The position numbers and the translations under genes are program-made. Shown here piece after piece: positions 39,658 through 60,889 of a DNA stretch of 64,000 nt. This DNA is from Simiduia agarivorans SA1 = DSM 21679 (GTDB taxonomy: Bacteria > Pseudomonadota > Gammaproteobacteria > Pseudomonadales > Cellvibrionaceae), in the NCBI RefSeq assembly GCF_000305785.2, contig NC_018868.3, positions 2,266,001 through 2,330,000 of the forward strand. The letters are read 5' to 3'. Every line of letters begins with the position of its first letter. Position 1 is the first letter of the stretch. The notes under the pieces were generated by a model, which had not been told where the DNA came from, made no database searches, and saw only the letters and a list, made by a program, of their open reading frames with translations.

Positions 39658-39770
39658 GCCCAGCATAGCCTGAAAAAACGCAATCGCTTGGCATGGCGTG
39701 GTCGCCACGGATATAATCTGATCGTTTGGACGCCCAATTAATCAGATACTTAAGTCCGCCGGAGACAGCC

Positions 39771-41498
<1,728 letters not shown>

Positions 41499-41877: not shown

Positions 41878-44868
41878 TCAATCAGCGGTCCAGCTGCTAC
41901 CCGGACCGACCATGTCTTCGGAGATGTAGATCAACGCATCCAAATCCGCACCAATACCGGCATCGGGACCCGCTCCTTCAACCATGTTATTGGCATCCGG
42001 CGTGGTGAGCGTTGCGCCGTTTTCCGCGCCGAACAGGTTGCCATCCATGCCTTGCTTGAAGTTGAAAGAGCCGCTTTTAGACAAGGTGTCTGAGTAGATA
42101 TGCACATTGTCGTAGTCGGAGCTCGCCTCAATGGCACAATCATCTATGACCGCAGTACGGCCACTGCCGTTGGTGTTGCCATTAATCGAGTTAGCTGAGT
42201 CCTGGTTCGCAATCAACAGACCATCCACATCAATCACAATACTGGCCAAACCACAGTTTTTACTGCCGAACTGCAGCGCATACTGTGCGTTAACCACTGT
42301 GTTGTTACTGATGGTCAGCGTTTTATTGATGCTGCCATCAGCTATCACAGCGCCATTGCCGTCCCCAGTCAACACTTCGGAATTGACGAGCAGTGCCGCA
42401 CGCTGACTGGATGTGGTGCGAATGTTATTGATGTAGTTGTTGCTGATGGTGTGGCCCAATGGGGCGAACGAAATACCACCATCATCCTTATCATCGCCAG
42501 CAGAAATAATGATATTACTATCCACAGTTGAGCCAAAACCGTCTTCAAGTGCTATCTGGCCGGTGGAATTCACCACAGTATTATATCGGATCGTATTCCG
42601 GCTGGATTGCACTTTGATTAGTCGGCGGTCAACATTCACATTGCTGAACAGGTTATATTCAATCGTCGTCAGGCCATCTTCTTTACCATCAGAGGATGTA
42701 GAACGCCCCAACTGAATTGCGTAGCCCGATGAGTTGCGATTATCGATATCACCAGAAGGCAATGTGAAGTCCTTGAACAGGTTATAGCGGATGCTGTGAC
42801 CTTCGTTGTTATCCGGTGTATTGTTAACGTAGATGGTAATGGCAGAACCTTTTTGTTCGGCATTTTTTGCCGCAAATACGTTGCGCTCAATAACCGACTG
42901 AAAGCCTTTCAGAGATACATAATGATATTCACCCGAAGCATCTGCCTGACCGTTAAAGGTGTTGTTCGACAAAACCGCTCCGCTACCCTCCATATAGACA
43001 GAAGCCGGTCCCGTCGACGCACAACTGCTACCGCTCGATAGGCTTAAATCGTTGAAGGTCATGCCATCCAGTACCGAGCCCGCGCCTAACACGATACAGC
43101 TAGTACCGGAAACGATTGGCGCCTGCCCAGCAACCGCTTGCACTGTAACACCGTCGCCAATCGATAGCTCTGGCATATTGGCATAGTCGCCTGCCTGCAC
43201 ACCGATCACATCACCAGACGCGGCAGCACCAACGGCCGAGGCCAATTCGGCTTTATTGCTGACAAGCGCACTATAGACAATACCATCGGCAGAGGACGTC
43301 AGCGATTCATCAAAGCCATCATCATCGGTGTAACTTGCCGTTACAGAAATGGCGGCACCGACTTCAGCGGCTGTTAGTGTGTATGACGAAGCATTGGCAT
43401 TGGCGATCGCCTGCCCATCAGCCATCCACTGATAGCTTACGCTGCCACTGATACCGTTGGCATCGGTGGGCGCGGCAACGGTCAGTGCTTCACCAACCAC
43501 CAAAGTGCCCGATATCGCGCCGGCTACACCATCAAAATCTGTTGCATCCGTGGTCACTGCAGCGGTCGACGCGGAGGTCAGTTGTTCCGAGAAGCCTGCA
43601 TTATCGGTGTAGCTCGCGGTTACGCTCAGGGTTGAACCCAGAACCGCGGCAGTAATATTGTAACTGGCAGCGGTTTCGCCTGAGGCAGCCACACCATCAA
43701 CCAACCATTGATAGCTGACACTGCCCACCCCGTTGGCATCAGACACAATCGCCTGAAGGCTGGAGCCCACACTGGCAGAGCCCTGAATGGACACGGAGCC
43801 TTCAGTGTTCACAATACCAATAGAACCTGCCAACGCATCAAGCGCTGCCTGATTCAGGTTTGCCGCCACCGCGGAACTGGCAAGATCCATTTGAGCCGCG
43901 GCCAGATCCTGTAGTGTCTGCACAGAAAAACTTCCATCTTCAAGATCGCTTGCCAATGCAGACACGACGGCTGATGCGTCGCCGCTGGTATTTTCATCCA
44001 GCTGAGACACTAATGCCAATGCGGTTGCATAAAGGCCGGCAGCATCATTACCAATAGCACCGGCTTGCAAATCAGCAGGCGCTTGCGCGGTGATATCAAT
44101 GGTGACCGGAGCAGTTGCACCGGCTGGCACATATTCCAGCCCGAACCACTGCGCCACATCGTTGTTATAGGTGGTCAGCGCACTCAGCAATCCGGCCGCA
44201 TCAGCCAGTGCCAACTGGGTGGCAAGCTCGGTGAGTGGCGAAACCACAAAGTCCGCATCGCCATCCACATTGACTACGGCACGGGTGAGCGGCGCGGTCA
44301 GACTGGAGCCGGTCGCTTCATCGATGTAGGTGCCACCAGAACATTCAACCAAGGCGGGCCCCTGATATTCAACGCCCGCAAAGGTCAGCACACCGGAAGC
44401 CGTCATGCCCGAGCCCAGCGCTGTACCTTTTTCGCCGGTATCGGTCAGTGGAAACAGGCTGCAGCTGCCACCCTCTACCAGACCGTGCACGAAGGTCGCA
44501 TTAATAGTGAGTGAGGCGGGGACTGCGTCGGTTACAGTGGACGCGGTGGACTCACGCAGGCCGTTTTCACCCTGATAGCTCACTTTGACTTGCAGAGTCT
44601 GACCCACGTATTCATTGGTTACCGTGAAGGTGGCCGCATCCGCACCGGAAATAGCTGCACCATTGGCATACCAACCGTAAAGCACAGAATCCGCCACTAC
44701 GCCGTCGGCATCACTGACCGTGGCCGTCAACACATCACCCACACTGGGCGATCCGGTAAAGCCCGAGATTTCCACAGACCCAGGCGTATTGCTGTAGCTG
44801 TTATCACCACCACCGCACGCCGTCAGTGCGGCACCAATGGCCAGGGTAAGTAACGTTTTCTGAAACAT
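41878..44868 (-). CDS. PL6-like beta-helix lipoprotein with Ig-like repeats, catalytic residues replaced
   Basis: A 996-residue lipoprotein (signal ending LTACGGGD). An Ig-like repeat (about 30-120) is followed by an unassigned part (about 125-345) and two more Ig-like repeats of the SYQW...VTASYTD type (about 350-540). The C-terminal 450 residues form a chondroitinase-B-like parallel beta-helix, as in PL6 alginate lyases. In PL6 the catalytic strand reads EVEIISVKS and later LTLRHGN. Here the aligned stretches are DRRLIKVQS (about 744) and IALEDGF (about 770), so the Glu, Lys and Arg of the active site are not kept. It may bind alginate without cutting it, or use other chemistry. Confidence 0.82.
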   Translation of the reverse strand: MFQKTLLTLAIGAALTACGGGDNSYSNTPGSVEISGFTGSPSVGDVLTATVSDADGVVADSVLYGWYANGAAISGADAATFTVTNEYVGQTLQVKVSYQGENGLRESTASTVTDAVPASLTINATFVHGLVEGGSCSLFPLTDTGEKGTALGSGMTASGVLTFAGVEYQGPALVECSGGTYIDEATGSSLTAPLTRAVVNVDGDADFVVSPLTELATQLALADAAGLLSALTTYNNDVAQWFGLEYVPAGATAPVTIDITAQAPADLQAGAIGNDAAGLYATALALVSQLDENTSGDASAVVSALASDLEDGSFSVQTLQDLAAAQMDLASSAVAANLNQAALDALAGSIGIVNTEGSVSIQGSASVGSSLQAIVSDANGVGSVSYQWLVDGVAASGETAASYNITAAVLGSTLSVTASYTDNAGFSEQLTSASTAAVTTDATDFDGVAGAISGTLVVGEALTVAAPTDANGISGSVSYQWMADGQAIANANASSYTLTAAEVGAAISVTASYTDDDGFDESLTSSADGIVYSALVSNKAELASAVGAAASGDVIGVQAGDYANMPELSIGDGVTVQAVAGQAPIVSGTSCIVLGAGSVLDGMTFNDLSLSSGSSCASTGPASVYMEGSGAVLSNNTFNGQADASGEYHYVSLKGFQSVIERNVFAAKNAEQKGSAITIYVNNTPDNNEGHSIRYNLFKDFTLPSGDIDNRNSSGYAIQLGRSTSSDGKEDGLTTIEYNLFSNVNVDRRLIKVQSSRNTIRYNTVVNSTGQIALEDGFGSTVDSNIIISAGDDKDDGGISFAPLGHTISNNYINNIRTTSSQRAALLVNSEVLTGDGNGAVIADGSINKTLTISNNTVVNAQYALQFGSKNCGLASIVIDVDGLLIANQDSANSINGNTNGSGRTAVIDDCAIEASSDYDNVHIYSDTLSKSGSFNFKQGMDGNLFGAENGATLTTPDANNMVEGAGPDAGIGADLDALIYISEDMVGPGSSWTAD

Positions 44869-44947: not shown

Positions 44948-46294
44948 TCAGGGTTGCGCAGTACCGTGCGACGTTTCCAGGCGATAAAATGTCGCTTGCA
45001 CGAAGTCGTCTGCATTACCGGTGTTATTCTGGTTGTAGACACCGGCCTTGAAGTACATGTAGTCGTCACTCACGTCGTAGCCGGATTGACTCATGTCCAC
45101 CTCTGTCTGACCGCGCAGTTCATCTCCCACATAGATTTCAACGCGCAGGCTGTTGCCCTTAGCGTCAATCACGTAGGAAAACTTTTCATCCAGCGCGATG
45201 CCGTTAGCCGGATCTTCAGCGTTGTCCTTGCGACTGCCAATCAGGTCGATAAATATTTCGTCGCCGTGGCCGCGCGAGGGCTCATGGGCCATATACACAG
45301 ATCCCCGGGTGTTGTTGGGTAATTTGCGGTAGTAGAGTCGGATTGGTTCATCCTTGTCGGCATGAATCTGACCGATAATGACCCGGCCTACTTGATTGGG
45401 GGCGCCGGTTACCGTGACATAATTGACTGCCAGCGTTGCCTCCATGCGGCCATCGACGGCGCCGGCAATCCGCTGCGCGCGCGGCGGCGCACTGGAAAAC
45501 ACCCAATTGTTTTTGTTGGGCCCGCCAGTAGCTTTGGTCTTGATGGATTTATCGCCGCGCCGGAGCATGCCGCGCAATTCACTGCGGGTAAATTTCGTAT
45601 TAGCAGAGGTACGGCCGCCTTTATTGGGCGCGCGGAAAGTCATACCGCCATCCCAACGGGTAAAGAAATACAGCTCGTCCTCAAAGCCATTCGCCAGTTC
45701 CCACTCGTAGTAAATATCGCCGATACCATCGCCGTCATCATCGCGCGGCGTGCTCAGATACCAGCCGAGCAGATCAAAATTGCGGCCCGGAGGGAGGTCG
45801 GGAGACAAGCCGGTACCGCCTTCACTTTTCGGCTGAATAGCTGCCGCCAAGGGCGCGCCGGCGTGCTCAGCCAATGAGAAAGAAAAGTCGTCAAAGCGGC
45901 CTTCGGTGCCGGCGTATGAAGCAAACACAATGGCCTGAGTGGCCCCCTGACTGTCGAACACCACTGACAATTCTTCCCAATCGCGGGTCTTGCGTTCTGG
46001 CTGATCAAAATACATCTGGCCGTCCACTTTCACACCCAGCGTCCCGGCGCCAAGTACGCGCGCCGTAAGCTGGTAACGGGTGTCAGGCGTGACGGAGACC
46101 AAACGGCCCACATAACTTCCGGGCTTGGTCAGTTTGACGGAGTGCTTGCCGGTGTAGGCCTTGTCGGAAATCGATAACCCCTCGCCCTGGGGCTGCCAAC
46201 CTTCCCAGCCCTGCTCAAAGCCCGGGTTAACCAGCTCATTGGCGCACAATTCAGAAGACAACAACAACGCGGCCAGACCAAGGGTTTTTCTCAT
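44948..46294 (-). CDS. Alginate lyase, PL7/PL18 superfamily, with N-terminal binding domain
   Basis: A 448-residue secreted enzyme (signal MRKTLGLAALLLSSELCA). Residues about 20-145 form a CBM4/16-like jelly roll (ELVNPGFEQGWEGWQPQG). The lyase domain, about 165-445, carries FTRSELRGMLRRGD, IIGQIHADKDEPIRLYYRK and DYMYFKAGVYNQNNTG. The LYYRKLPNN wording and length point to PL18 rather than classical PL7, but I cannot separate the two with certainty. Next in line after the enzyme at 46802-48622 on the same strand. Confidence 0.87.
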   Translation of the reverse strand: MRKTLGLAALLLSSELCANELVNPGFEQGWEGWQPQGEGLSISDKAYTGKHSVKLTKPGSYVGRLVSVTPDTRYQLTARVLGAGTLGVKVDGQMYFDQPERKTRDWEELSVVFDSQGATQAIVFASYAGTEGRFDDFSFSLAEHAGAPLAAAIQPKSEGGTGLSPDLPPGRNFDLLGWYLSTPRDDDGDGIGDIYYEWELANGFEDELYFFTRWDGGMTFRAPNKGGRTSANTKFTRSELRGMLRRGDKSIKTKATGGPNKNNWVFSSAPPRAQRIAGAVDGRMEATLAVNYVTVTGAPNQVGRVIIGQIHADKDEPIRLYYRKLPNNTRGSVYMAHEPSRGHGDEIFIDLIGSRKDNAEDPANGIALDEKFSYVIDAKGNSLRVEIYVGDELRGQTEVDMSQSGYDVSDDYMYFKAGVYNQNNTGNADDFVQATFYRLETSHGTAQP

Positions 46295-46801: not shown

Positions 46802-48622
46802 TTAGTCATGCTGCACCGTCAGCTCATAAAAGGTGACTGATGCATAATCGGGCGAGGCGGTACCGGTGTTGTTCTGGTTATACAAGCCGGCCTTGAAGTA
46901 CATATAGTCGTCTTTGTAAAAATCAGAAATCGTAATGGCGTTGATATCGCTGCTATTGTTGATCAACACTTTTGAGCGTGTTTTGGTGTAAGCGATGGCG
47001 TCCGCCGTGGTGTAAGTGTTACCGTCATAGGTCACTGTCACCGTCAGCTGGTCGCCCACCAATTTGATCTCGTACTCCCATTCGGCACCCAGCGGAATAC
47101 CATTGGCTGGCTCTTCGACGGACGATGCATTGGCGTCTGTATCGTTTTTGTCGGTAAAGCCAATCACATTGATGCGATCAACCGGACTGCCACTGGCACC
47201 ATCCACCGTAAAAAATACTGAACCCTTGGTGTGACCAGGTAGTTTGCGATAGTAAATTTTTACCGGTTCATGGTCTGCGCCGTGAATCTGACCCACAATA
47301 ATTCGACCGATCTGGTCTGTACTGGTGGCATCCACACTGACCGTATTCACCTTCAAGCGCGCGCGCATGGTGCCATTCACACCGCCTACCAATGTCTGAT
47401 TTTCAACCGGCGCCTCACTGGTGACCCAGTTATTTTTGGTAAAGCCTTTTACGTTGGCGGAAGAGTCATAGTATTCACTGATCAACTCCCTCAACTCACT
47501 GCGCACAAAGCTCGAGTTGGTAGATGTACTGCCTTTGTTTGGCGCCCTGAATGTCGGGCAACCTTCGCTGTCAAAGGTCAGGTCTGCGCCAATATTGGTG
47601 CGATCAATCAGGTCCTGAATATCGGATGCGTCATTGCGCGAAACACCATCGGATACGGTATAACCCCAGCGGGATAGATCCATATCCGCACAGGTTCCGG
47701 TGGGCGTTGGCGTTGGCGTTGGCGTTGGCGTTGGTGTAGGCGTTGGTGTTGGTGTTGGCGTCACAGAGCCGGCGCTGAATACATCGGCTTCGGTCAGGCT
47801 GTTCCAGCTGTTGCTGCTGTTGCCGTTACCCACATAGCGCACGTAGCGAGCCGAGCTGGAAGGCACACTGAAGCGCTCCGCTTGCAGGCTGGTACCGGAG
47901 CTCACCAGCCCCGAAGCCAACGTCGACCAGCTGCTGCCATTGGTGCTGGCCAGCAAATTGAAATAAGCCTGGCGCTGATCGCCCTTATAAAAGGCCAGAT
48001 CAACTGCATCCACTTGCTGGGTGCTGCCCAGATCCAGCGTCAACGTCTGGCCTGATCCGTTGGCGCTCCAGCGAGTGTCAAAATTATTATCCAATACATT
48101 GACCGCCACGTTGCCATCGTCGGCACTGGCCGAAACGCTCTGCACGGTAATCGGTGTCAGGCTGCCGCCTGCTTCCGATTCAAAACTGACTTCGGTGATA
48201 CTGTTCCAATCATTCGAACTATTACCTAAACCAACCAGCCGCAGATAACGTCCGGCGGCACCACTCACAGCAAAGGCTTCGAAATCCAATGTTGAACCGG
48301 AGCTCACGCCGTCGTATACCACTGACCAGTCGGTGCCATTGGCAGACGTGGCAATCTGAAACTGGGTTGTGCGCTCGTTACCTTTATAGAACGCAATATT
48401 CATCGCGCCGAATATCTGGCTGCTACCAAAATCATATTGCAGGTATTGCCCTGCACCTTGCGCCGACCAGCGCGACTCGGGTTCCAGAGAGCCATCCAGT
48501 GTGTTGGCGGCCACATGCCCATCATTGCCACTATCGGACACATTCACAGGGCTCAACGCATAGGCGGCACTTCCAATAGCCATCGCCAGCGGAAGCAGAA
48601 GGAAAGGGTTTGCTCTTTTCAT
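46802..48622 (-). CDS. Alginate lyase, PL7/PL18 superfamily, with two F5/8 type C domains
   Basis: A 606-residue secreted enzyme (signal ending AAYA). Two F5/8 type C (CBM32-like) domains at about 24-155 and 160-288 share the pattern DGNVAVNVLDNNFDTRWSA and SLTEADVF/SITEVSFE. A Thr-Pro linker (about 291-310) leads to the lyase domain with SFVRSELREL, VGQIHGADHEPVKIYYRK and DYMYFKAGLYNQNNTG. It is close to the enzyme at 44948-46294 in the lyase part but has different binding domains. Two cysteines (CADMDL, EGCPTF) may form a disulfide. Confidence 0.9.
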   Translation of the reverse strand: MKRANPFLLLPLAMAIGSAAYALSPVNVSDSGNDGHVAANTLDGSLEPESRWSAQGAGQYLQYDFGSSQIFGAMNIAFYKGNERTTQFQIATSANGTDWSVVYDGVSSGSTLDFEAFAVSGAAGRYLRLVGLGNSSNDWNSITEVSFESEAGGSLTPITVQSVSASADDGNVAVNVLDNNFDTRWSANGSGQTLTLDLGSTQQVDAVDLAFYKGDQRQAYFNLLASTNGSSWSTLASGLVSSGTSLQAERFSVPSSSARYVRYVGNGNSSNSWNSLTEADVFSAGSVTPTPTPTPTPTPTPTPTPTPTGTCADMDLSRWGYTVSDGVSRNDASDIQDLIDRTNIGADLTFDSEGCPTFRAPNKGSTSTNSSFVRSELRELISEYYDSSANVKGFTKNNWVTSEAPVENQTLVGGVNGTMRARLKVNTVSVDATSTDQIGRIIVGQIHGADHEPVKIYYRKLPGHTKGSVFFTVDGASGSPVDRINVIGFTDKNDTDANASSVEEPANGIPLGAEWEYEIKLVGDQLTVTVTYDGNTYTTADAIAYTKTRSKVLINNSSDINAITISDFYKDDYMYFKAGLYNQNNTGTASPDYASVTFYELTVQHD

Positions 48623-48908: not shown

Positions 48909-49664
48909 ATGAGCGGACGCCGCCTTTATCAGAACGTTGTTGACGAGATCAATAAACTGATCGACTCCGGCGATTACCCGCCGGGCAGCCGTCTGCCGCC
49001 AGAGCGGGATCTCGCCGAGCGCTTTGACGTCAGCCGGCTGACCATCCGCGAAGCCATCATCGCTCTCGAGGTGCTGGATAAAGTCAGAGTCAAGACCGGC
49101 TCCGGTGTGTACGTGAAAGAACCAGCGCATAAAGCAGTTGCAGGGGCACCATCGGATATTGGCCCGTTCGAACTGACCCAGGCACGCGCCGTCATTGAAG
49201 GTGAAGCGGCAGCCATCGCCGCCAGCATGATCACCGAGGAAGCGCTGAAAGAACTGGAAGGCACCCTGAAGTTAATGGCGCAAGAAAACGCCGAAGGCGA
49301 CCTGGCCGCGGCGGAAGCTGACCGGCAATTCCACCTGATTATTTCGCAGGCCACCAACAATGCCGCGCTGCTGATGACCATTAAACGATTGTGGGAAATC
49401 AGGGAAACTTCGGCGCCCATCGTGCGTGCCTATGAGGGCGTGTGCAAACTGAATGGCAAAAACCGGTTGGATGAACACCGCGCCATTTATGACGCACTCA
49501 AAGCCCGCGACGCCAACGCTGCGCGCAAGGCCATGCACCACCATTTTGCCCGCTTGATCGAATCCCTGCTGCACGTTTCCGAAGCTCAGGCTATTGAGGC
49601 TGCGCGACAGGAATCCCTGAAAAGCCGACAGCAATATTCGCTGGATCATTTGTTCAGCCGATAA
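48909..49664 (+). CDS. GntR/FadR-family regulator of the alginate locus
   Basis: A 251-residue FadR-type repressor. Winged helix about 5-75 (LYQNVVDEINKLIDSG, LPPERDLAERFDVSRLTIREAI, VKTGSGVYV). FCD domain about 85-230 with metal-site histidines in ADRQFHLIIS, DEHRAIYDAL and AMHHHFARL. It is similar in layout to the pectin regulator at 13877 but clearly a different protein. The TCTGAT/ATCAGA motif around it is its probable target. The ligand is likely an alginate-derived keto acid such as KDG; this is inference. GGAGCC precedes the ATG. Confidence 0.87.
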   Translation: MSGRRLYQNVVDEINKLIDSGDYPPGSRLPPERDLAERFDVSRLTIREAIIALEVLDKVRVKTGSGVYVKEPAHKAVAGAPSDIGPFELTQARAVIEGEAAAIAASMITEEALKELEGTLKLMAQENAEGDLAAAEADRQFHLIISQATNNAALLMTIKRLWEIRETSAPIVRAYEGVCKLNGKNRLDEHRAIYDALKARDANAARKAMHHHFARLIESLLHVSEAQAIEAARQESLKSRQQYSLDHLFSR

Positions 49665-50100: not shown

Positions 50101-51057
50101 TCAACCGGTCATTTCCGGGCGATCAAATCCTGCCATCAGGCGGCGCGGAATAATGGCGCCGCGATGCTGGATCACCAGGGCGGCCAAACGGTGTGCGGTT
50201 TTTGCCGACGCCACCGGATCTTTGCCACCAATGCGCTCGGCCAGATAGCCGGCATTAAAACTGTCACCCGCCGAGGTGGTATCCACTGGCCGCACCCGCT
50301 GGGCGGGCACAATCGTGTTCAATTCACCGGCGATGATGCTGGCACCTTCCGGCCCCTGCTTGATCACTAATTCCGGTATGCCGTAGTCGAGCAAACGCTG
50401 CTGGTGCTGCTGCAAGCCGCCATTGCCAAACAAGGCCTGCTCATCCTCCAGCGTCAACAGTGCCACATCCACCTGGCGATAGATCTGCTCAAACGCCCGG
50501 ACCGCGTCAGCCTTGTCGCCCCACAGTCGAGGCCGGTAATTTGAGTCGAACGCGACCTTACCGCCCGCCGCACGGTAGTGCTCCAGAAACCGCAGTAACC
50601 GACTGCGCGCTTCGGGCGGCAGTATCGCCAGACTGATACCCGTCAGATACAGCCATGGGTAGCGCATCAGCTGATCAAAAATCTGTTCGGCCCGGCCGGA
50701 ATCGTTGAATAGCTTGCGCGCTGGTGACTGATCGCGCCAATAGCTGAAGCTACGTTCACCAGTGGCATCTGTTGAAATCAGGTACATGCCGGGCGCGTGG
50801 TCGGGGATGCGCTGCACCTGCGCACATCCGACACCTTCCTGCTGCCACTGGTTGAGCAACCAATAGCTCATTTTGTCGTCGCCCACGGCGGTGACAAAAT
50901 CCACCGGGCAACCCAGGCGCGACAAATACACGGCGGTATTCAATACGTCGCCACCAAAGGCGAGGTTGGCGGGCAGCGAGCTGCCGGCGGAGGTGGCCGA
51001 CGCCAGAGAAATCTCCAGCATGCACTCCCCCAATACCGCTATTTTTACATCCGACAT
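50101..51057 (-). CDS. kdgK: 2-keto-3-deoxygluconate kinase (alginate copy)
   Basis: PfkB-family KDG kinase, 318 residues, the last shared step before KDPG aldolase. IAVLGECMLEIS, FGGDVLNTAVYLSRLG, RSFSYWRDQSPARKLF and the PfkB signature DTTSAGDSFNAGYL are all present. ATG at 51057, with GAGG upstream, 10 bp after the SDR stop; the longer start at 51090 lies within the SDR gene. It is a clear paralogue, not a copy, of the kinase at 18215. Confidence 0.93.
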   Translation of the reverse strand: MSDVKIAVLGECMLEISLASATSAGSSLPANLAFGGDVLNTAVYLSRLGCPVDFVTAVGDDKMSYWLLNQWQQEGVGCAQVQRIPDHAPGMYLISTDATGERSFSYWRDQSPARKLFNDSGRAEQIFDQLMRYPWLYLTGISLAILPPEARSRLLRFLEHYRAAGGKVAFDSNYRPRLWGDKADAVRAFEQIYRQVDVALLTLEDEQALFGNGGLQQHQQRLLDYGIPELVIKQGPEGASIIAGELNTIVPAQRVRPVDTTSAGDSFNAGYLAERIGGKDPVASAKTAHRLAALVIQHRGAIIPRRLMAGFDRPEMTG

Positions 51058-51067
51058 GCGATGGACC

Positions 51068-51820
51068 TCAGGAGTACCAGGTACCGCCATTCACATCCAC
51101 GTTGGCACCGGTCATATAGGATGCTTCGTCAGATGCCAGATACACGGCTGCCTTGGCGATTTCTTCTGAACGGCCTTCACGCTTCAGTGCGGCACCGCCA
51201 GCGACTTTTTCACGCACTTCGGGCTTGGTGAAAATGTTGTGGAAATCGGTATCGATCATGCCGGGGCACAGCGCGTTCACACGGATCTTCGGGCCCAGCT
51301 CTTTCGCCAGCGAACGGGTGTAGGTCATCACCGCACCTTTGGACGCGGCATAGGCAGCAGAACCCGGGCCACCGCCATCGCGCGCTGCTTGTGATGCGAA
51401 GGTCACAATCGAACCACCCTCAGACATCAAAGGCAGTGCCGCTTTAACGGTCAGGAACAGGGAGGTGACATTGAGGTCCATCACCTGGGTCCAGAATGCC
51501 TGATCGGCCTCTGCGGTGGTTTTACGGGCGACCAGACCGCCAGTGACGTGCATCAGCACATCCAACTTGCCAAAGCGTTCTTTAACGGTAGCCAGCGTAC
51601 GATCCACATCGGCCTGCTTGGTCAGGTCTGCCTGCAGCGCTACGGCTTCACCGCCCGCTGCTTCAATTTGGGCACAGACTTTATTGGCACCTTCAGCGCT
51701 GGCCATATAGGTCAGAACCACTTTTGCGCCCTGCGCCGCACTTTCAAGCGCGCAGGCTGCACCGATATCACGACCACCACCGGTGACCAGTACCACTTTT
51801 CCTTTCAATTTATCTGCCAT
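51068..51820 (-). CDS. Short-chain dehydrogenase, probable DEHU reductase
   Basis: A 250-residue SDR. TGGGRDIGAACA binds the cofactor, then the VTGG form of the usual NNAG, the catalytic set FASQAARDGGG...YAASKGA (Tyr-Lys), and CPGMIDTDFHNIF. In alginate-using bacteria an SDR reduces 4-deoxy-L-erythro-5-hexoseulose uronate (DEHU) to 2-keto-3-deoxygluconate. The position between the uronate transporter and kdgK2 supports this role. Distinct from KduD at 19961. Confidence 0.88.
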   Translation of the reverse strand: MADKLKGKVVLVTGGGRDIGAACALESAAQGAKVVLTYMASAEGANKVCAQIEAAGGEAVALQADLTKQADVDRTLATVKERFGKLDVLMHVTGGLVARKTTAEADQAFWTQVMDLNVTSLFLTVKAALPLMSEGGSIVTFASQAARDGGGPGSAAYAASKGAVMTYTRSLAKELGPKIRVNALCPGMIDTDFHNIFTKPEVREKVAGGAALKREGRSEEIAKAAVYLASDEASYMTGANVDVNGGTWYS

Positions 51821-51974: not shown

Positions 51975-53270
51975 TCACCGGGGTTTAAGCGGTTCGATCC
52001 GGGGGCACAATATCCACACCGCGGCCATCGCTGTGATGGCCAGTGCCGCGCCGATAACAAAAGCGGGGGTATAGTTGCCACCCGATGTCAGCCAGGGCAC
52101 CAAAGAGGTCAGCCCCACGGCGCCAAGCTTGGCTGCCATGCCGGCAAAACCCGCCAATGAGCCCACGGTTTTACCGCCAAACAAATCACTCGGCAGTGTT
52201 TGTACATTGCCAATAGCGGTCTGAAAGCCGAACAGAATCACAGCCATCAGCAGCACCGCTGTCACAGGCTCTCCGGGATTGGCCATAGCGAGCAGTGTGG
52301 GCAACATGATCAGACAGCCCAGGGTAATCACCAGCTTGCGGGTTTTGTCCACCGACCAACCGGCTTTCATCCGGTTCTGCGCCAGCAAGCCACCGAACCA
52401 GGCGCCGAACATGGCCCCTACATAAGGCACCCAGCCATAAATACCGATTTCCTTTACATTCATGCCGTAGACTTCGGACAAGTAAATGGGAATCCAGAAC
52501 ACAAACAACCACCAGATGGGATCGATAGCGGCAGAGGCGATGATCACACCCCAACTCTGCTTGCGGGACAGCATTTCCATCGTGCCTGGGTTGTAGCCAT
52601 CGTCGTCAGCTGAACCCGCAGACGAGTCGCTGCGCTGGCCGGTGAGAATGTACTCACGCTCCTCTTCGGAAATCCAGGGGTGACTTTTGGGCGGTGCTTT
52701 TACCAACACAATCCAGGGAATGAGCCACAGCAGGCCCACCAGACCGACAATCACAAAAATCATCTGCCAGGAAAAGTAGATAGTGAGAAACGCAATTAAC
52801 GGGATCGATATGATGCCGCCGATTGCCGCACCGGAGTTAAAAATTCCCTGCGCAAAGGCCCGCTCTTTGGTGGGGAACCACTCAGCATTGCCTTTGGTAG
52901 CGCCCGGCCAGTTACCGGCTTCGGCCACGCCCAAGATGGCGCGAAAAATACTGAAGGTCACTAAACCCTTGGCGAAAGCGTGAGCGGCAGTGGCCAGCGA
53001 CCAGATACCGATGGACAGCACAAAGCCCATACGGGTGCCCACCCAATCAAAGATCTTGCCGAAAATTGCCTGACCAAAGGCGTATGAAAAAACAAATATG
53101 ACTGAAATGAACGCGTAAATTTCTTTGCGCTCGTCCGGTGTTTTGTCCGGGTACAGGTCCTGCGAAATGGCAGGCCACAACACGTTAAGCGATTGACGAT
53201 CGATATAGTTGATGATGGTCGCCAGGGCGATTAACCCCACTACCCACCAACGCAGGCCTTTTATTTTCAT
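51975..53270 (-). CDS. MFS transporter, hexuronate (ExuT-like, ACS) family
   Basis: A 431-residue, 12-segment permease. ATG at 53270 has GGGGAG upstream. ATIINYIDRQSLNVLWP at segment 1 and GVAEAGNWPGATKGNAEWFP are signatures of the anion:cation symporter family that includes ExuT. It probably imports alginate monomers (DEHU or uronates) released by PL17. It starts at a TCTGAT operator. The pectin side uses a TRAP importer instead. Confidence 0.9.
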   Translation of the reverse strand: MKIKGLRWWVVGLIALATIINYIDRQSLNVLWPAISQDLYPDKTPDERKEIYAFISVIFVFSYAFGQAIFGKIFDWVGTRMGFVLSIGIWSLATAAHAFAKGLVTFSIFRAILGVAEAGNWPGATKGNAEWFPTKERAFAQGIFNSGAAIGGIISIPLIAFLTIYFSWQMIFVIVGLVGLLWLIPWIVLVKAPPKSHPWISEEEREYILTGQRSDSSAGSADDDGYNPGTMEMLSRKQSWGVIIASAAIDPIWWLFVFWIPIYLSEVYGMNVKEIGIYGWVPYVGAMFGAWFGGLLAQNRMKAGWSVDKTRKLVITLGCLIMLPTLLAMANPGEPVTAVLLMAVILFGFQTAIGNVQTLPSDLFGGKTVGSLAGFAGMAAKLGAVGLTSLVPWLTSGGNYTPAFVIGAALAITAMAAVWILCPRIEPLKPR

Positions 53271-53285
53271 AGTGACTCCCCTAAT

Positions 53286-53294
53286 AATCTGATC
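53286..53294. promoter_or_regulatory. TCTGAT operator before the MFS gene
   Basis: AATCTGATC lies 16 bp before the transporter ATG and inside the 3' end region next to the PL17 stop. Confidence 0.5.
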
Positions 53295-53308
53295 ACTGCA
53301 CGTGCGAA

Positions 53309-55495
53309 TTAATGATTTACCAACAGGTGTACGGGGCCCTGCCATTGAACGCGCTGTTCACCTAAGCTCAGCGCGTGCTGCCGCTCTGGCGCACGATCAT
53401 CAGCCAACACAATACGCAGCGTTTGGCCGGACACGGTGTCCAGTGTCAGCACCTGTGCACCCGGGTGTTGCTCGATAGCGGCGCGGGCTATTGCCGATCT
53501 CGGCTGGCTTACAGTTTCCGCGCGGCCGTCATAGTGACCGTGTTGTTCGAGCAACTGGACAAACTGCACTCCGCCGCTGGTTTCGGCACGGGCAATTAAT
53601 GCCTGATCCCTGCGCAGGTTGAACTCCGGGTCATTGGCACCCAGTTCAGCCACCAGCAAGGTCTGATCCGCCGGCGCCACCGCGGTGAGCGTGTAAAACC
53701 GGTTGTTGCTGAGCCAGCTTGCCTGCAGCGGCCGATGAGCTGCCGGCGCCAGTGTGGCCTTGTGCCACAAATGCTGATAGCCGTTTTGTGTGCCCAAAGG
53801 CTTCAACGCATCGGTGTTCACTGCCAGCTCACCGGAAAACGTCATCAGCTGGCCCTGAAAATGCACAGGCAGTTCATACACATGCTGCTCGTCGCTTTCG
53901 GCCGCCAGCAGATCAAGCACCAGAGGACCAGACAGCAACGGATGCTCCAGCAAAATCTGTGTGCGCGTCATCACCACACCTTTATAGGCATTGGCTTCAC
54001 GCGCGCTCACCAGCTGCCATTGCTCGCCGCGAACAAACTGCAATAGTTCCGGACTGGATTTGGACGCGCGCTTAACGCTGCCGTCAAAATGACTGGTGCG
54101 ATCCACCACCAGTGCGTTATGCGCCACAGTTTGCTTCGCCCAGCTGGTATTTTCCGGCAGGTAAATGCCACCTTGTTTGGGCTCCACGTTCAGGTAGCGA
54201 GCGGCACCGTAATCGCTGACGATTTCGGCACCCTGACTGTATAGTTGCCAGCCCAACCGATCGAAATGCCCGTGCCCCATGCCCTGGGACGCAGCCTTGA
54301 ACACCACGGTGGTATCACCCGCCCGCAACAATGCCACAGCGCCTTCGTCGCCATTGGGGCCATCGCGGAACAGCTGGCTGCTGAATGGAAATTGAACGTC
54401 GGCCGAGCGTGCCAAATCAACGGCAACACGCAGGCCATCACCCGTTAACACCACCTGATTCTGCTTGCGCGCGATCGCCAACAGATTTTTGTCCTGGGTT
54501 TTCGCGTAAGCAATGGATACGCCGTAAACCATTTCTATGGTATCCAGCCCCTTGTCTTTGATCGCGTCATTCAAGGGCAGGAAATAGTGGCCGTCGGTCA
54601 ATTGAATGGCGGCGTAAATGGCCTTGATCAGAATGCGGTCACGGTATTCAAAGATACCCATGCTGGGTTTGTGACGATCGAGCGCACGGGCAAACATCAC
54701 GAAAGGCAACAATGCATAGCGTTGGTAGTAAGGGCCTTCCGTGTAATAGCCATCGGGTGAAAACAGCTGATCCATCTGCTTCAGAAAGCCCGCCTTGCCG
54801 GATTGGTCCAATCCTTTCAGGGCGATATTGACGTAATAATCGTCTGCCAGAACCAAACCGGTCATGCCAACTGCCGCCGCGGCCCAGGTGCCATGATTGT
54901 GAACTTTGTTAAAGGTACTGGCGGATTCTTTCGACAAAAAGTCGGCATAGGGTCTCAGCAAACGGGATTCCACCTGCGCACGCTGATCCTCCGTCATGGC
55001 GGGTAACACCATGTCATAGGCCTGAATCACATAAGTCAGCCACCAGGCATCATTGAGAATCTGCCAGAACAATTTGCCCGGCGCCTGATGTTTGTGTTCA
55101 GGATGCAACCCCAGGGTCGGGTACAGATCCGCATAGCGAACCAATACCTCCGCCGCCCAATTGGCATAGCGCGGATCGCCCTTGATGGTGTAAAGCTGCC
55201 CGGCCTGGAAAAGCAGTAAGGCATTTTTTTTGTGGCGCTCATGGCTGTAACCACCACCCGGATCTTTTGGCAGCGGAATATCCAGCGCTTGCGCCATAGC
55301 AGCATCAACTTCAGTCTGAGCTTGCTGCAATGCGTCCGCAAAAAGAGGTGCAGATACGCCGTCCGCACGCTTCATTGCGGCCACGTCTTGCGCTGCCACC
55401 AACAAGTTCGGGTGCCTGGATACATCTGTATCGGACTCACAGGCACTCAATATAAGTGCAGTAACCACTATGGAGAAAAAAACACCGGCTCTCAC
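53309..55495 (-). CDS. Oligoalginate lyase, family PL17 (lipoprotein)
   Basis: A 728-residue periplasmic lipoprotein (signal ending LSACESD) that releases unsaturated monomers from alginate oligomers. The N-terminal alpha/alpha toroid has NHGTW (Asn200-His201) and GYYTEGPYYQRYAL with the likely catalytic tyrosine about 257. The C-terminal heparinase II/III-like part has GMGHGHFDRLGW (His about 408-410) and SDYGAARYLN. These match the known Alg17C residues (Asn201, His202, Tyr258, His415, Tyr450). The ATG overlaps the stop of the PL6 gene by four bases. Confidence 0.95.
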   Translation of the reverse strand: MRAGVFFSIVVTALILSACESDTDVSRHPNLLVAAQDVAAMKRADGVSAPLFADALQQAQTEVDAAMAQALDIPLPKDPGGGYSHERHKKNALLLFQAGQLYTIKGDPRYANWAAEVLVRYADLYPTLGLHPEHKHQAPGKLFWQILNDAWWLTYVIQAYDMVLPAMTEDQRAQVESRLLRPYADFLSKESASTFNKVHNHGTWAAAAVGMTGLVLADDYYVNIALKGLDQSGKAGFLKQMDQLFSPDGYYTEGPYYQRYALLPFVMFARALDRHKPSMGIFEYRDRILIKAIYAAIQLTDGHYFLPLNDAIKDKGLDTIEMVYGVSIAYAKTQDKNLLAIARKQNQVVLTGDGLRVAVDLARSADVQFPFSSQLFRDGPNGDEGAVALLRAGDTTVVFKAASQGMGHGHFDRLGWQLYSQGAEIVSDYGAARYLNVEPKQGGIYLPENTSWAKQTVAHNALVVDRTSHFDGSVKRASKSSPELLQFVRGEQWQLVSAREANAYKGVVMTRTQILLEHPLLSGPLVLDLLAAESDEQHVYELPVHFQGQLMTFSGELAVNTDALKPLGTQNGYQHLWHKATLAPAAHRPLQASWLSNNRFYTLTAVAPADQTLLVAELGANDPEFNLRRDQALIARAETSGGVQFVQLLEQHGHYDGRAETVSQPRSAIARAAIEQHPGAQVLTLDTVSGQTLRIVLADDRAPERQHALSLGEQRVQWQGPVHLLVNH

Positions 55496-57732
55496 TTGGC
55501 TGTCTCCTCTGCCGTTTCGGTCGCATTCAATGCCACAGGCTCACCCCGATAACGGATATCCAGCAACGACTGGCGCCATTGATTGTCGGCTATCTCATAC
55601 AGGGGTTCACCCACACGGCTTTCAATTTTTACCGTGCCCGAACCCGAGAGTTGGTTGCCTTTCAGGGTAACGACCTGCGCACCAAAGGCATCGATTAACA
55701 ATTGATCCTGATTGCGTTTACCGCGTCCGGAATCGGTGAACTGGTTATTCTCCAGTATCAGATGCGGGCCAAAGGTACTTTCGTCAGTGCCGCCCCGGTA
55801 CAGCGACAACACCTTGCCCTGAATCCGCTCAAACTGATTATTGCGAAGCACCACATAATCCGCATTGAAAATACCCAGGTCATCGATCTCCGCGTCCAGT
55901 TTGAGCATATCGCCGGTGATATCACTGAAACGGCTGTTTTCGATGCGAATTTCGTCCGCCATGGTGGACTTGGCCACTTTCAACAATGAATAGGAATGAT
56001 TGACGTCCAGATTGCGCACCCAAACGCCGGAAAGCAGCAATCGATAATTGTTCAGCATGTCATACCGACTGGTACGGATAAGCGTATTGCCGGCAGTATC
56101 ATCCGATTCTGCACCATCAATCAGCAGGTTGCGCAACGCCAACTGGCCACCATCCTGAATTTCAAACAGTGCATTTCTGCTATAGCGGACTGTGACCGAC
56201 AGCGCATCCAGCGGCGCTTCAGGCCCCTGAATGGTCACCGCAAAAGGTACTTCAAGCACACGGTCAACCTGATAGTCGCCCGCTGCCAGCATCAGCACAT
56301 CGCCGGGGGCCGCCTGCTTCAGCGCATGTTCCAATGCCTGATAACCGGGCTTCACATGAATGGTGCGCCCCGAATCCAGGGCACTACGGGCGTCGCCCTT
56401 CGGAAACCAGTCCACACCCACCTGATCCAGTTGAACCGGAAGTGCCGGCTTCGCCATGCCATGCTGCGTGGATTTTGACTGCCACAGACCGTCGGTATTT
56501 TTTTCCACTTGAATGTCCGTGCTACCCAGAGGAAACGCGGTTTGGTAGTTGGAGGCACCGTTGTCTGAAAATACCATGCCACTGACATCGTCGAAGGCGG
56601 TAATCGGATCGCTCTTAATGCCGGTGGCGATAAACAGATTGTTGGTTACTTTGGTATTGCTGGGCGTCTCACTTCGCTCGGCGTCCGAACCTGCAGCCAG
56701 TTGAATTGCAGCCACATCCACCAACGTATTGTTTTCAATGGTGACATTTTTCACTGCGTGATATCGGTTAATGGGCGAATTGGGCACACCGTTCATCACC
56801 ACCAGACCGCCGCCAAAGCGATAGCCGGTTAGTTCGGAAAGGTAGTTATTGCGTACCTGGTGATCCGCGTTGATCACGCGGATTCCGCCGGTGTGCGGTT
56901 TGTTGTTACCCAGAAAAACATTATTCTCAATGATATTGCCATTGCCATGGCGCAAGGTGAGCGTGCCGGCAGACTCGAAAAACACATTATTGGTCAGACT
57001 GTTTTTACCGGATTTAACGGAAATAATTTCCACTTCACCGTCGCACCGGTCAAACCAGTTATTGCTGACTTCGGTAAAGGAGTCCGACAGCGAGTAGTGG
57101 CTGGTACCAATACGCAACGTCTCGCCACCATTGCTGCCCAGCACCTGGCGCGGACCGAAGTAGTTGTGATCGATTTTGTGATGATTTTGCTGGCTTTGTT
57201 CGGTATCCAGGCGCACCGCCAGGGTCACCCCCTGATTCATTTTGCCCACCAGGTGGTTGTGGTCAAAGCGATTGTGGCGACCATACAAAGTCACCCAGAT
57301 ATCCGGCTCGAAACGGCCGGGCTTATTGAATCTGTCGATAACCGTATTGGTTACGCGGGAATAATTTGCCAGTGTTTGTTTATCTTTCCGGAAGCTGATA
57401 ACGCTACCGGTGGGGGAGTAGCCGCGGGTAAACACCAGACCATCGACCACCAGATAGTCGCCCGCCAGGGTCAGATTAGATTCGCCGGTGATGAGTACCT
57501 TGCCCGCTGTTTCCGCTTTCAACGTAATGGGCTTGCCGTCCTGACCATCGACCTCGAACAAAATTTCCACATCCTTCCATTCACCATTACGCAGCGTAAT
57601 AGTCTGGCCAGGCTGTGCAGATGCAATAGCAGCGCTCAATTCGGTGGCGTTGCTCACTAACGCCTGTTTACCGCCACAGGCTGATACAAGCATTAGGGAC
57701 AACACACCCATCAGTCTTATCAAAGAAATCAT
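55492..57732 (-). CDS. Alginate lyase, family PL6 (lipoprotein)
   Basis: A 746-residue lipoprotein (ATG 57732, signal ending VSACGGKQ) with two parallel beta-helix parts. The first, about 25-400, has the complete PL6 catalytic set: GEVEIISVKSG (Glu pair and Lys, about 228-238) and GTLTLRHGNG (Arg-His, about 255). The second, about 440-735, is a beta-helix of the kind found in two-domain PL6 enzymes. Operon with PL17 by a four-base overlap. An ATCAGA operator overlaps the start codon. An upstream ATG at 57801 lies in the terminator and is not used. Confidence 0.93.
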   Translation of the reverse strand: MISLIRLMGVLSLMLVSACGGKQALVSNATELSAAIASAQPGQTITLRNGEWKDVEILFEVDGQDGKPITLKAETAGKVLITGESNLTLAGDYLVVDGLVFTRGYSPTGSVISFRKDKQTLANYSRVTNTVIDRFNKPGRFEPDIWVTLYGRHNRFDHNHLVGKMNQGVTLAVRLDTEQSQQNHHKIDHNYFGPRQVLGSNGGETLRIGTSHYSLSDSFTEVSNNWFDRCDGEVEIISVKSGKNSLTNNVFFESAGTLTLRHGNGNIIENNVFLGNNKPHTGGIRVINADHQVRNNYLSELTGYRFGGGLVVMNGVPNSPINRYHAVKNVTIENNTLVDVAAIQLAAGSDAERSETPSNTKVTNNLFIATGIKSDPITAFDDVSGMVFSDNGASNYQTAFPLGSTDIQVEKNTDGLWQSKSTQHGMAKPALPVQLDQVGVDWFPKGDARSALDSGRTIHVKPGYQALEHALKQAAPGDVLMLAAGDYQVDRVLEVPFAVTIQGPEAPLDALSVTVRYSRNALFEIQDGGQLALRNLLIDGAESDDTAGNTLIRTSRYDMLNNYRLLLSGVWVRNLDVNHSYSLLKVAKSTMADEIRIENSRFSDITGDMLKLDAEIDDLGIFNADYVVLRNNQFERIQGKVLSLYRGGTDESTFGPHLILENNQFTDSGRGKRNQDQLLIDAFGAQVVTLKGNQLSGSGTVKIESRVGEPLYEIADNQWRQSLLDIRYRGEPVALNATETAEETAK

Positions 57733-57741
57733 ATCAGATAC
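57730..57741. promoter_or_regulatory. ATCAGA operator overlapping the PL6 start
   Basis: CATATCAGATAC covers the PL6 start codon at 57730-57732 on the minus strand. A repressor bound here would act as a roadblock. Confidence 0.5.
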
Positions 57742-57765
57742 GAATACAGGGCCTGCTCGGAGGCG

Positions 57766-57799
57766 AAAAAGAAAGCCCGGCGACTGCGCGTCGCCGGGC
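57766..57799 (-). terminator. Terminator after the alginate TonB receptor
   Basis: GCCCGGCGAC/GTCGCCGGGC 10-bp stem followed on the minus strand by TTTCTTTTT, 9 bp past the stop. Separates the receptor from PL6-PL17. Confidence 0.92.
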
Positions 57800-57807
57800 A
57801 CTGGCTA

Positions 57808-60800
57808 TCAGAACTTAACGGTTACGCCGGCAAAAATGCGCGGGCCATAGCTGTTAACTTCACCCAAGTTATCTTCATCAAAGAAGTACTGCTGCTTGGG
57901 TGCACTGAACAGGTTGATAGCCTCGACCTTCAGCTTGACGTTATCGGTGAGGTCATAAGAAGCGCGTGCCTCCCAGGTACCCACATCACCCACATAGCGC
58001 AGGCGCGTGCCGTTGCTGGTGTAAGGCTGGAAGTAGCCACTACGGTACTTGTAGATCAACGCGGTATCAAAATCACCGATCTGGTAATAGATCTGGCCAT
58101 TGAATACGTGGTTGGACAGCCCCGGCACAGAGGCAGGGTCAACAATGCCCGCAGTCAGTTGCGTGCGCACGCCGTCGAGACCGGTAGTGTAGGTATCACC
58201 GTAGAGACTGTCTTCAAACTCGAAATCCGAATCAGCGTAGTTGTAGCCGGCCTTCACACCAATACCATTATCCCAGCGATAGGCCGCGGACATTTCAATG
58301 CCGTACAGGTTACTTTCCTGATCGGTGGTCACCGCGTTGGTAATGGGCAAGCTCACGGTCTGGCCGTCAATCACAAACTCTTCCATCACGGTGCGCTGTT
58401 CAAACCCACCCAGGAAACGCTTGTAGTAGACGCCGGCAGCAAAGATTGCATCGTCATTCGGATACCATTCGAAGGACACATCAGCGTTCCATGACATCAG
58501 TGGCTTGGCATCGGGGTTGCCCGAACCGTTGGCACCCACCAGCAAATCAGGCAGCGTGGTCGGATCACTGGTGTCATCGGTGTCGAAGGTGCGACTGTAA
58601 CCCATGTCGGACGGATTCACCCGCGACATGCCACGGTAAACACCACCGCGGATCACGTGCTGTTCTGAATAGTCCCACACGAAGTTAACGCTGGGCAGGA
58701 ACTCAACATAATCACCGCCACCGCTGACTTTTTCGATTTCGCCAGCCACGGTTTCCAGGCTGACAACACCGGTAACCGGATCAGTTACCACCACGTAGCG
58801 ATCACGGTAGCCATTGGATGTCACGTCTGTGCTGACCACCCGCACGCCGAAATTACCGCGTAATCCGCGATCTGCCAGCTGGGTTTCGTAGTCGGCCATT
58901 ACATAAGCCGCATAGGTGGTTTCGGTTACGTCAGTGGTGCCCGGGTTCAGGAACTCCACTTCCGGGTAGACAAAATCCACACCGTTGGCTGCCGTCAGTG
59001 CGTTGGCAAAACACTGGTTATCGAAGGCCGCATAACTATTGCCGGTACCCTCTTCAATCACATTGCCATTGCTATCGACGTTGGTAATCAGGTTTCCGTC
59101 GCTGACGCGGTGCAAGAATTTACTGGATGGGAAATCGATAGTGCAGTTGGCCTGAATTTCAGCCACTACCGCAGAATCGGAGCTGGTGTACTCATCGCGC
59201 GAACCATTGCCATTGCTGCCACCAAATTGCACATAAGTCATTTCTGAACCGCGCAATCCTCCCTTAACGCCAGTAATGACGCCGGCATTCATGGCGTAGT
59301 CGAAATCAATGCGCAACGCATCCATGCGGTTTTCACGCACGTTTTCGCGATCTACGCGCGCACGGTAGGCGCCATCAAACCAGCTGTGGTCTGTCAAATC
59401 CTGGTTTTCGACGATGATGGTAGGAATGGTTTTGCCCATATCCCACACCACCGGAATACGGTCACCTTGCGCACGGTTGCTGATCTGCAGCTCTTCGCGA
59501 TCAGTTGCAGAGTGGGACGCATCCACCTCAATGGTCAGGCGATCGTTCACATTGTGAGACACGTTCAGACCAAAGCCCTGATAGTTTTCTTCACGTGAAT
59601 ATTTTTCACCATTGGCTTCAAAGCGGGCATCGCCCTCCCAGTGCAGAATGCCACCGGCCGCGTTGGTCACCAGGTTTTCACCGGTCACACCAGGCGTTAC
59701 GCGTTTCTGCTCAAATACCAGATCGTGGCGCTCTTCGGCCTGGGTACGGTTTGACACCTGCGCATCAAAATTAATGTCCCAACGCTCGGACGGCTGATAT
59801 TGCAAACTGACAAAGAAGGAATCCCGCTCGTCCGAGGTTTCATTCTGGCGGTAGCTGCGGCTGGAGCCGGTCCACGCATAAGGAATACCATCGCTCACCG
59901 CTTTACCGGTATTCGGGTCGATAGTGGTGTCGTAGCCGCGGTTGTTACCGCTGCCATCGTTGCGGTCTTCACAATCGCCAGATGAGCTACGGAAGAAGCC
60001 CTCGTTGGTAATGCTGGGATCGTTCAGACACGCCCACAGCGAACTGCCCGTTGGACTGGAGCTGCGGTACTCGCCTTCGGGCTGACTGATGGCCTGACGC
60101 TGACCGCCCAATGAAATACCGATGGCCTGACCGTCGCCGAATTCAAACTGATCCACGTAGCTCAGAGTACCGCGATAACCCAGATCGCCCTGCAGAGAAT
60201 TGTCGATGTGCTGTTGATCCGGGTTGTAATTGAGCTTTACGTCACCCTGAATACGCTGCTTGCCATACTCCAGCGGCTTCAGTGTTTCCAGCGCAATCAC
60301 GCCGGCCACACCGCCTTCAATCATCGAAGCATCCTGGGTTTTATAGATCGCAACCTTGCTCATCAGCTCTGACGGGAACTGGGAGAAGTTCACCGAGCGG
60401 TCACCCGAACCGTTGGTGGCTTCGCGGCCATTGAAGTGGGTCGCGCTCAGGAAAGGGCCCAGACCGCGGATAGTGATTTCAGTGGCACCACCGTTTTCAC
60501 GGTGTGAGGCCGCACCGGTAATGGACTCGAGCGCTTCACCAATAGACAGCGCCGGCAGTTCACCGATGTCAGACGCGGACAGGCCGTCCACAATGGTGGT
60601 AGCGTCGCGCTTAATGGCAATCTGGTCCTGCACCAGCTTGCGGGTACCGGTTACGGTAATTTCTTCCAGCACTTCCGCGTTTTGCGCATCGGCCGATTGT
60701 GCCAGCACCGGCATTGCCAATGGCGCAGTCAATCCGGCCAGGGCAGCGGCCCTGACCCACAGGGCCAACGGCCTGCGGGTAAATGTCTCGTTTGTGATTT

Positions 60801-60840
60801 CGCTCGTTGAGCGACGCTCTCCAGTAATTGTCACCGACAT
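57808..60840 (-). CDS. TonB-dependent receptor of the alginate locus
   Basis: A 1010-residue outer-membrane receptor. ATG at 60840 follows TTGGAGACC; an ATG ten codons earlier is less likely. The long signal region holds WVRAAALAGLTAPLAMPVLAQ. TonB-box-like EEITVTGTR, plug motifs ALSIGEALESITGA, TEITIRGLGPF and GGVAGVIALETLKPL, then a barrel ending IFAGVTVKF. Likely cargo is alginate oligosaccharide, given the operators and neighbours. Confidence 0.92.
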   Translation of the reverse strand: MSVTITGERRSTSEITNETFTRRPLALWVRAAALAGLTAPLAMPVLAQSADAQNAEVLEEITVTGTRKLVQDQIAIKRDATTIVDGLSASDIGELPALSIGEALESITGAASHRENGGATEITIRGLGPFLSATHFNGREATNGSGDRSVNFSQFPSELMSKVAIYKTQDASMIEGGVAGVIALETLKPLEYGKQRIQGDVKLNYNPDQQHIDNSLQGDLGYRGTLSYVDQFEFGDGQAIGISLGGQRQAISQPEGEYRSSSPTGSSLWACLNDPSITNEGFFRSSSGDCEDRNDGSGNNRGYDTTIDPNTGKAVSDGIPYAWTGSSRSYRQNETSDERDSFFVSLQYQPSERWDINFDAQVSNRTQAEERHDLVFEQKRVTPGVTGENLVTNAAGGILHWEGDARFEANGEKYSREENYQGFGLNVSHNVNDRLTIEVDASHSATDREELQISNRAQGDRIPVVWDMGKTIPTIIVENQDLTDHSWFDGAYRARVDRENVRENRMDALRIDFDYAMNAGVITGVKGGLRGSEMTYVQFGGSNGNGSRDEYTSSDSAVVAEIQANCTIDFPSSKFLHRVSDGNLITNVDSNGNVIEEGTGNSYAAFDNQCFANALTAANGVDFVYPEVEFLNPGTTDVTETTYAAYVMADYETQLADRGLRGNFGVRVVSTDVTSNGYRDRYVVVTDPVTGVVSLETVAGEIEKVSGGGDYVEFLPSVNFVWDYSEQHVIRGGVYRGMSRVNPSDMGYSRTFDTDDTSDPTTLPDLLVGANGSGNPDAKPLMSWNADVSFEWYPNDDAIFAAGVYYKRFLGGFEQRTVMEEFVIDGQTVSLPITNAVTTDQESNLYGIEMSAAYRWDNGIGVKAGYNYADSDFEFEDSLYGDTYTTGLDGVRTQLTAGIVDPASVPGLSNHVFNGQIYYQIGDFDTALIYKYRSGYFQPYTSNGTRLRYVGDVGTWEARASYDLTDNVKLKVEAINLFSAPKQQYFFDEDNLGEVNSYGPRIFAGVTVKF

Positions 60841-60889
60841 GATGGGGTCTCCAATTTTTATGGTTATCATCGGGAACCACTATATCCAA

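Follow-up and report, generated by a model that had tools for sequence, protein, structure and literature searches.

Can a protein with the fold of a PL6 alginate lyase still cut alginate once the residues on which such enzymes depend have been replaced? The question is raised by a lipoprotein gene of Simiduia agarivorans SA1 (= DSM 21679), located at 41878..44868 (- strand) in the 64,000-nucleotide stretch analysed here (contig NC_018868.3, positions 2,266,001 to 2,330,000; hereafter the window, to which coordinates refer unless another locus is named). An earlier note, made from the sequence alone, had described its product as a PL6-like lipoprotein deprived of the PL6 catalytic residues, in an otherwise preserved fold and locus, and had proposed that it is a binding protein or catalyzes a different reaction. 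The description holds, as shown below, and binding alone is retained as a rival explanation. However, the same reaction performed by other residues is likelier than a different reaction. By analogy with characterized relatives, the lipoprotein is probably an active alginate lyase of the PL6_3 or AlyM2 kind, a lipid-anchored, surface-exposed endolyase; we infer that it is active and that it sits on the outer membrane.

A PL6 domain with replaced catalytic residues

The gene starts with an ATG and encodes 996 residues (calculated mass 100.2 kDa, pI 4.05). From about residue 530, the product matches the Pfam family PF14592 (E 5.5e-18; 65.6 bits, the cut-off being 24), and the solved structures nearest to it are PL6 alginate lyases, the best sequence match being AlyF of Vibrio (5z9t; E 1.8e-19, phmmer). 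An ordinary, AlyGC-like PL6 (E 1.7e-236 to AlyGC), carrying the motifs EVEIISVKS and LTLRHGN, is encoded in the same window at 55492..57801 (- strand); the start at 57732 that the earlier note gave for it fits an internal ATG. The lipoprotein is 24% identical to this neighbour (E 9e-17, BLASTP), and a profile-profile alignment (hhalign) of the lipoprotein type with PL6 gave an E value of 1.3e-33. The domain concerned (residues 530-996; 41881..43281, - strand) is predicted to adopt the PL6 parallel beta-helix. Thus, both the sequence relationship, well above chance, and the predicted fold place the protein in family PL6.

In AlyGC, Ca2+ is bound by a pair of Glu residues and an Asn. The corresponding turns of the lipoprotein read DRRLIKVQS (residues 747-755; 42604..42630, - strand) and IALEDGF (residues 772-778; 42535..42555, - strand), as the earlier note had observed. 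In the alignments, the first Glu is replaced by Asp747, the second by Arg749, the catalytic Lys by Gln754, the catalytic Arg by Glu775 and the adjacent His by Asp776; the first of these changes is conservative, the other four are not. BLASTP, phmmer and hhalign all align the interval between the Lys/Gln and Arg/Glu columns without a gap, and the Arg column is independently anchored by the entry for the R241A mutant of AlyGC (5gkq), which reads LAHG where AlyGC has LRHG. A misalignment concealing equivalent residues elsewhere is ruled out, since phmmer, BLASTP, MAFFT and hhalign agree on the same match. The window's own AlyGC-type enzyme shares fold and locus with the lipoprotein but differs from it in having the Glu pair, the Lys and the Arg-His. 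The lipoprotein has neither the catalytic Lys and Arg (Gln754 and Glu775 instead) nor the Glu pair (Asp747 and Arg749 instead) of the Ca2+-Lys-Arg type, that is of subfamilies PL6_1 and PL6_2.

In BcelPL6, all four variants at Lys249 and Arg270 were inactive, and His271 was also crucial (PMC6879350); by that standard, the lipoprotein should be dead. Neutralization by Ca2+ is described for PL6, with one Ca2+-independent member (PMC6879350), and AlyF is reported to be Ca2+-independent in the same paper. AlyF differs from the lipoprotein in retaining the Lys and the Arg-His (ERELISIKS and LRHG). Another unusual variant of the Ca2+ site occurs in genome G036, where two PL6-type proteins (at L017 and L031) carry TREIIEIKS and ARETIEIKA-like motifs, with the Lys, the Arg and the second Glu kept and an Arg close to where the first Glu would be.

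The PL6_3 branch

AlyM2, from Pseudoalteromonas arctica M9, was assigned together with Mase04180 to PL6_3, a subfamily most members of which carry a Gln in place of the catalytic Lys and an Asp where the Arg would be (PMC8953905). AlyM2 comprises five predicted domains, the PL6 helix being the last, and is an active endolyase on polymannuronate (PM), polyguluronate (PG) and the mixed polymer (PMG), with trimers as the main product (PMC8953905). The other characterized member, Mase04180 of Alteromonas macleodii, is an endo-poly-MG lyase (PMC4954714). The replacements observed in the lipoprotein, Gln754 and an acid, Glu775 with Asp776 next to it, are this published PL6_3 signature. PMC8953905 places the Asp at the Arg column, whereas the alignment made here has Glu775 there and Asp776 beside it in both sub-branches, with both residues in 28 of 28 rows on the AlyM2 side; the published Asp may reflect a shift by one residue.

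The likeness to AlyM2 extends to the lipoprotein-type start, the beta-strand N-terminal domains and the C-terminal PL6 helix. For the comparison we used protein P0112, which after its signal reads CDTNSN, the sequence encoded by the AlyM2 forward primer, and which counted from its second Met has 910 residues and 94.80 kDa, against 910 residues and 94.93 kDa for AlyM2; on these grounds it is taken as a close stand-in for AlyM2 rather than as AlyM2 itself. BLASTP aligned it with the lipoprotein at 38% identity over 560 columns, outside as well as inside the helix. Read by eye from the translation, the lipoprotein begins with a signal peptide and lipobox (residues 1-18, ending LTAC at Cys18; 44815..44868, - strand). 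A first immunoglobulin (Ig)-like repeat follows at about residues 28-115 (44524..44787, - strand), recognized by eye and by BLASTP to P0112; within it, residues 37-110 match the NCBIfam model ZirU_fam below its cut-off. Two more such repeats at about residues 357-530 (43279..43800, - strand) were found by BLASTP to P0112, residues 354-530 belonging to the 38% match. The stretch between the first and second repeats (residues ~117-352; ~43813-44520, - strand) has no convincing Pfam match, none even at E 1. In another genome of the same genus (G302), a 7433-residue open frame (L041) gives many matches to the part of the lipoprotein that carries the Ig-like repeats.

The earlier note had proposed a phylogeny of PL6 subfamilies as a check. 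The maximum-likelihood tree built here, rooted at the midpoint for drawing, comprises 50 rows, of which 35 are of the Gln type and 15 of the Lys type, and the two types are split by one branch with 100/100 support. The lipoprotein falls with the Gln-type rows, on the side of P0112, the grouping being thus with a stand-in for AlyM2 and under a midpoint root. To find the sequence of Mase04180, three genome families were searched for the core of the published forward primer (matches in 0 of 107, 0 of 21 and 4 of 395 genomes); the four matches fall in short unrelated frames without the reverse primer, and no protein of that name was among the matches listed in a search from a distant branch member.

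That search was the third of three overlapping protein searches, which gave at least 108, 128 and 45 matches among about 8000 scored candidates each; each started from a member of the branch, so that the sampling is biased. The matches include Simiduia, Saccharophagus, Pseudoalteromonas, Paraglaciecola, Glaciecola, Catenovulum, Thalassotalea, Woeseiaceae and many metagenome proteins; of the viral contigs, four stretches matched a pattern and none encodes a relative. Among 198 distinct domain copies, Arg749 is present in 194, Gln754 in 196, Glu775 in 194, and all three in 193. At 80% redundancy the set is kept in 89 of 93 rows, against a median column conservation of 0.49. The replaced positions rank with the best-conserved charged or amide residues that the domain has. 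Five proteins depart from the set. P0212 is an ordinary Glu/Lys/Arg PL6, to be discounted, and P0105 has Ser at 754. The remaining three (P0100, P0102 and P0211) retain Gln754 but show Gly or Ala in place of Arg749 and Arg in place of Glu775, as if the Arg had perhaps shifted to the next coil.

The set is also found twice over in seven non-redundant fused proteins that carry two PL6_3-type domains and a PL7 match, Arg749, Gln754 and Glu775 being present in both copies (14 of 14). One of these, P0009 of Saccharophagus degradans (1554 residues, calculated 163.1 kDa, two PL6_3-type domains), corresponds, by species and mass only, to Alg6F (Sde_2873), whose listed size is 163.1 kDa (PMC3124978); it differs from the lipoprotein in that a single chain combines two helix domains with a PL7 match. 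Four cysteines, Cys591, Cys616, Cys872 and Cys911, are kept in 87 or 88 of 88 branch rows, whereas the ordinary PL6 of the window lacks them at these columns; this pattern suggests two PL6_3-specific disulfides.

A possible mechanism and its rivals

If the lipoprotein is an alginate lyase, the Ig-like repeats would hold the beta-helix off the membrane. The helix would cut alginate into short unsaturated oligosaccharides by ordinary beta-elimination, and the neighbouring PL7, PL6 and PL17-type lyases, the TonB receptor and the MFS (major facilitator superfamily) carrier would finish and import these. The Ca2+-Lys-Arg machinery would have been swapped for a charge-inverted set on the same coils. 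Gln754 and Glu775 are 21 residues apart, exactly the Lys-Arg spacing of AlyGC, and for this reason are taken to stack on neighbouring coils like the old pair. Arg749 and Gln754 would neutralize the +1 carboxylate directly, with no metal, while Glu775 would pair with Arg749 and might help proton movement; the joint change at 749 and 775 in P0100, P0102 and P0211 suggests this contact. It is speculative that the site works without metal, and so is any assignment of base and acid, including the choice of Glu775, Asp776 or another residue as acceptor of the C5 proton. Asp776 is disfavoured as a universal base by the His or Asn found in some relatives. As universal catalysts, Lys654, position 752 and Asp776 are ruled out, all three varying across the branch. 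Arg662, Tyr695 and His806, conserved in 88 of 88 rows, were set aside as new catalysts on the helix register, Arg662 and Tyr695 each directly preceding Asn positions taken as an Asn ladder, and His806 being shared with P0108 and with the ordinary PL6 of the window.

The authors of PMC8953905 considered that a distinct PL6_3 mechanism awaits confirmation. We found no later account of it in the open-access literature, subscription journals being mostly outside the search, and no entry named PL6_3 was among the PDB matches listed in sequence and fold comparisons of the lipoprotein and the window's PL6. We propose only tentatively, and as a doubtful possibility, that PL6_3 enzymes, the lipoprotein included, perform beta-elimination at a charge-inverted, metal-free site where a carboxylate (Glu775 or Asp776), and not a Lys, Tyr or His, takes the proton. 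If true, a new catalytic set would have taken over from the ancestral Lys/Arg pair, with fold and substrate unchanged. Conservation names Arg749, Gln754 and Glu775 as the residues to test, so that the open question of the PL6_3 mechanism becomes directly testable, and the three proteins changed at both 749 and 775 offer a natural comparison. In this branch, the absence of the Lys and Arg does not by itself mean a dead enzyme.

Several observations weigh against an active lyase of the AlyM2 kind. Within the helix domain, the lipoprotein and P0112 are just 36% identical (452 columns), and the two sub-branches diverge at three positions of the groove. When the 46 rows on the lipoprotein side, fusions apart, are compared with the 28 on the AlyM2 side, position 719 is Gln in 45 of 46 against Asn in 23 of 28, position 722 is Arg in all 46 against Ser in 26 of 28, and position 678 is Ser or Thr in all 46 against Lys in 26 of 28. 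These sequence differences suggest that the subsites, and perhaps the block preference, differ between the two sub-branches, so that the activity of AlyM2 is not simply transferable to the lipoprotein. The joint change at 749 and 775 was probably a single event, since the tree pairs P0100 with P0102 as sisters (100/100) and P0211 shares 81% identity with P0100. Long branches lead to two of the Lys-type rows. Finally, other candidate groove residues vary widely among the 198 copies: Lys in 113 and Gly in 39 at position 654; Arg in 123 and Lys in 25 at 752; Asp in 139, His in 36 and Asn in 20 at 776. No conserved Lys, Tyr or His can therefore be placed as the base, and a varied groove of this kind would also be the look of a non-catalytic one.

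Such a groove is what one expects of a surface protein that grips alginate and presents it, uncleaved, to the PL7 enzymes or the TonB receptor. We regard this as unlikely, although it would account for the disappearance of the two residues, Lys and Arg, at which substitution abolished the activity of BcelPL6 (PMC6879350), and proteins of the Saccharophagus type have a stretch between two such domains, with a PL7 match in the same protein, an arrangement that a binding module might show. AlyM2, however, is active without the same Lys and Arg (PMC8953905), the high conservation of the replaced positions fits catalysis at least as well as binding, and all three residues are retained in both copies of the fused proteins. 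Some other reaction on a uronan, for example epimerization or the cleavage of another polysaccharide, appears improbable. Least credible of all is a decaying duplicate of the window's PL6 gene: the two proteins belong to the same genome and the same family and share 24% identity, but the 996-residue frame is intact, the 100/100 branch separates the two types, and the same replacements are kept by 89 of 93 relatives less than 80% identical to each other. Decay into a pseudogene was rejected on the near invariance of the replaced positions.

The alginate locus

Domain matches confirm an alginate locus around the gene, which bears out the earlier note's view that the locus is kept. A PL7-type lyase (44948..46294, - strand; PF08787, E 5.5e-52) is encoded 79 bp upstream of the lipoprotein gene, with a CBM_4_9-like N-terminus (25.6 bits, just below the cut-off of 25.9). 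Two further PL7-type lyases are encoded at 46802..48622 (- strand), with F5/8 type C domains, and at 39726..41498, on the opposite (+) strand. Beyond these lie genes for a GntR/FCD regulator (48909..49664, + strand), a PfkB-family sugar kinase (50101..51090, - strand), a short-chain dehydrogenase (51068..51820, - strand) and the MFS carrier (51975..53345, - strand). They are followed by an oligoalginate lyase (53309..55495, - strand) with Hepar_II_III_C and Alginate_lyase domains (NCBIfam olalg_lyase, 818 bits, below the cut-off of 1400), which from these domains we take to be of the PL17 type. The ordinary PL6 comes next, and then the TonB-dependent receptor (57808..60870, - strand).

The genome has two PF14592 matches, the lipoprotein and the ordinary PL6. 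A profile of the branch scored above 500 bits at loci of 5 of 100 genomes of the same family, its own included (20 loci retrieved), and both PL6 types occur together in two others (G167 and G244) among 274 sampled genomes of the class, about 3 kb apart in G167. Gene order was examined at six (L003-L008) of nine named loci. Four of them (L003, L004, L005 and L008) have the end of a TonB receptor gene immediately upstream of the PL6_3 gene; a GGDEF/EAL protein is encoded there instead at L006 and a PL7 at L007. At least one other alginate-lyase gene is present in the retrieved stretch at all six. Beside or near the PL6_3 gene, L004 (9604-10554, + strand) and L003 (10831-11781, + strand) encode 317-residue proteins that are 77% identical over 273 columns, with no Pfam match and no PDB sequence match better than E 0.033; this could be an undescribed enzyme of alginate loci. 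A 320-residue open reading frame occupies a similar position at L008 (9229-10188).
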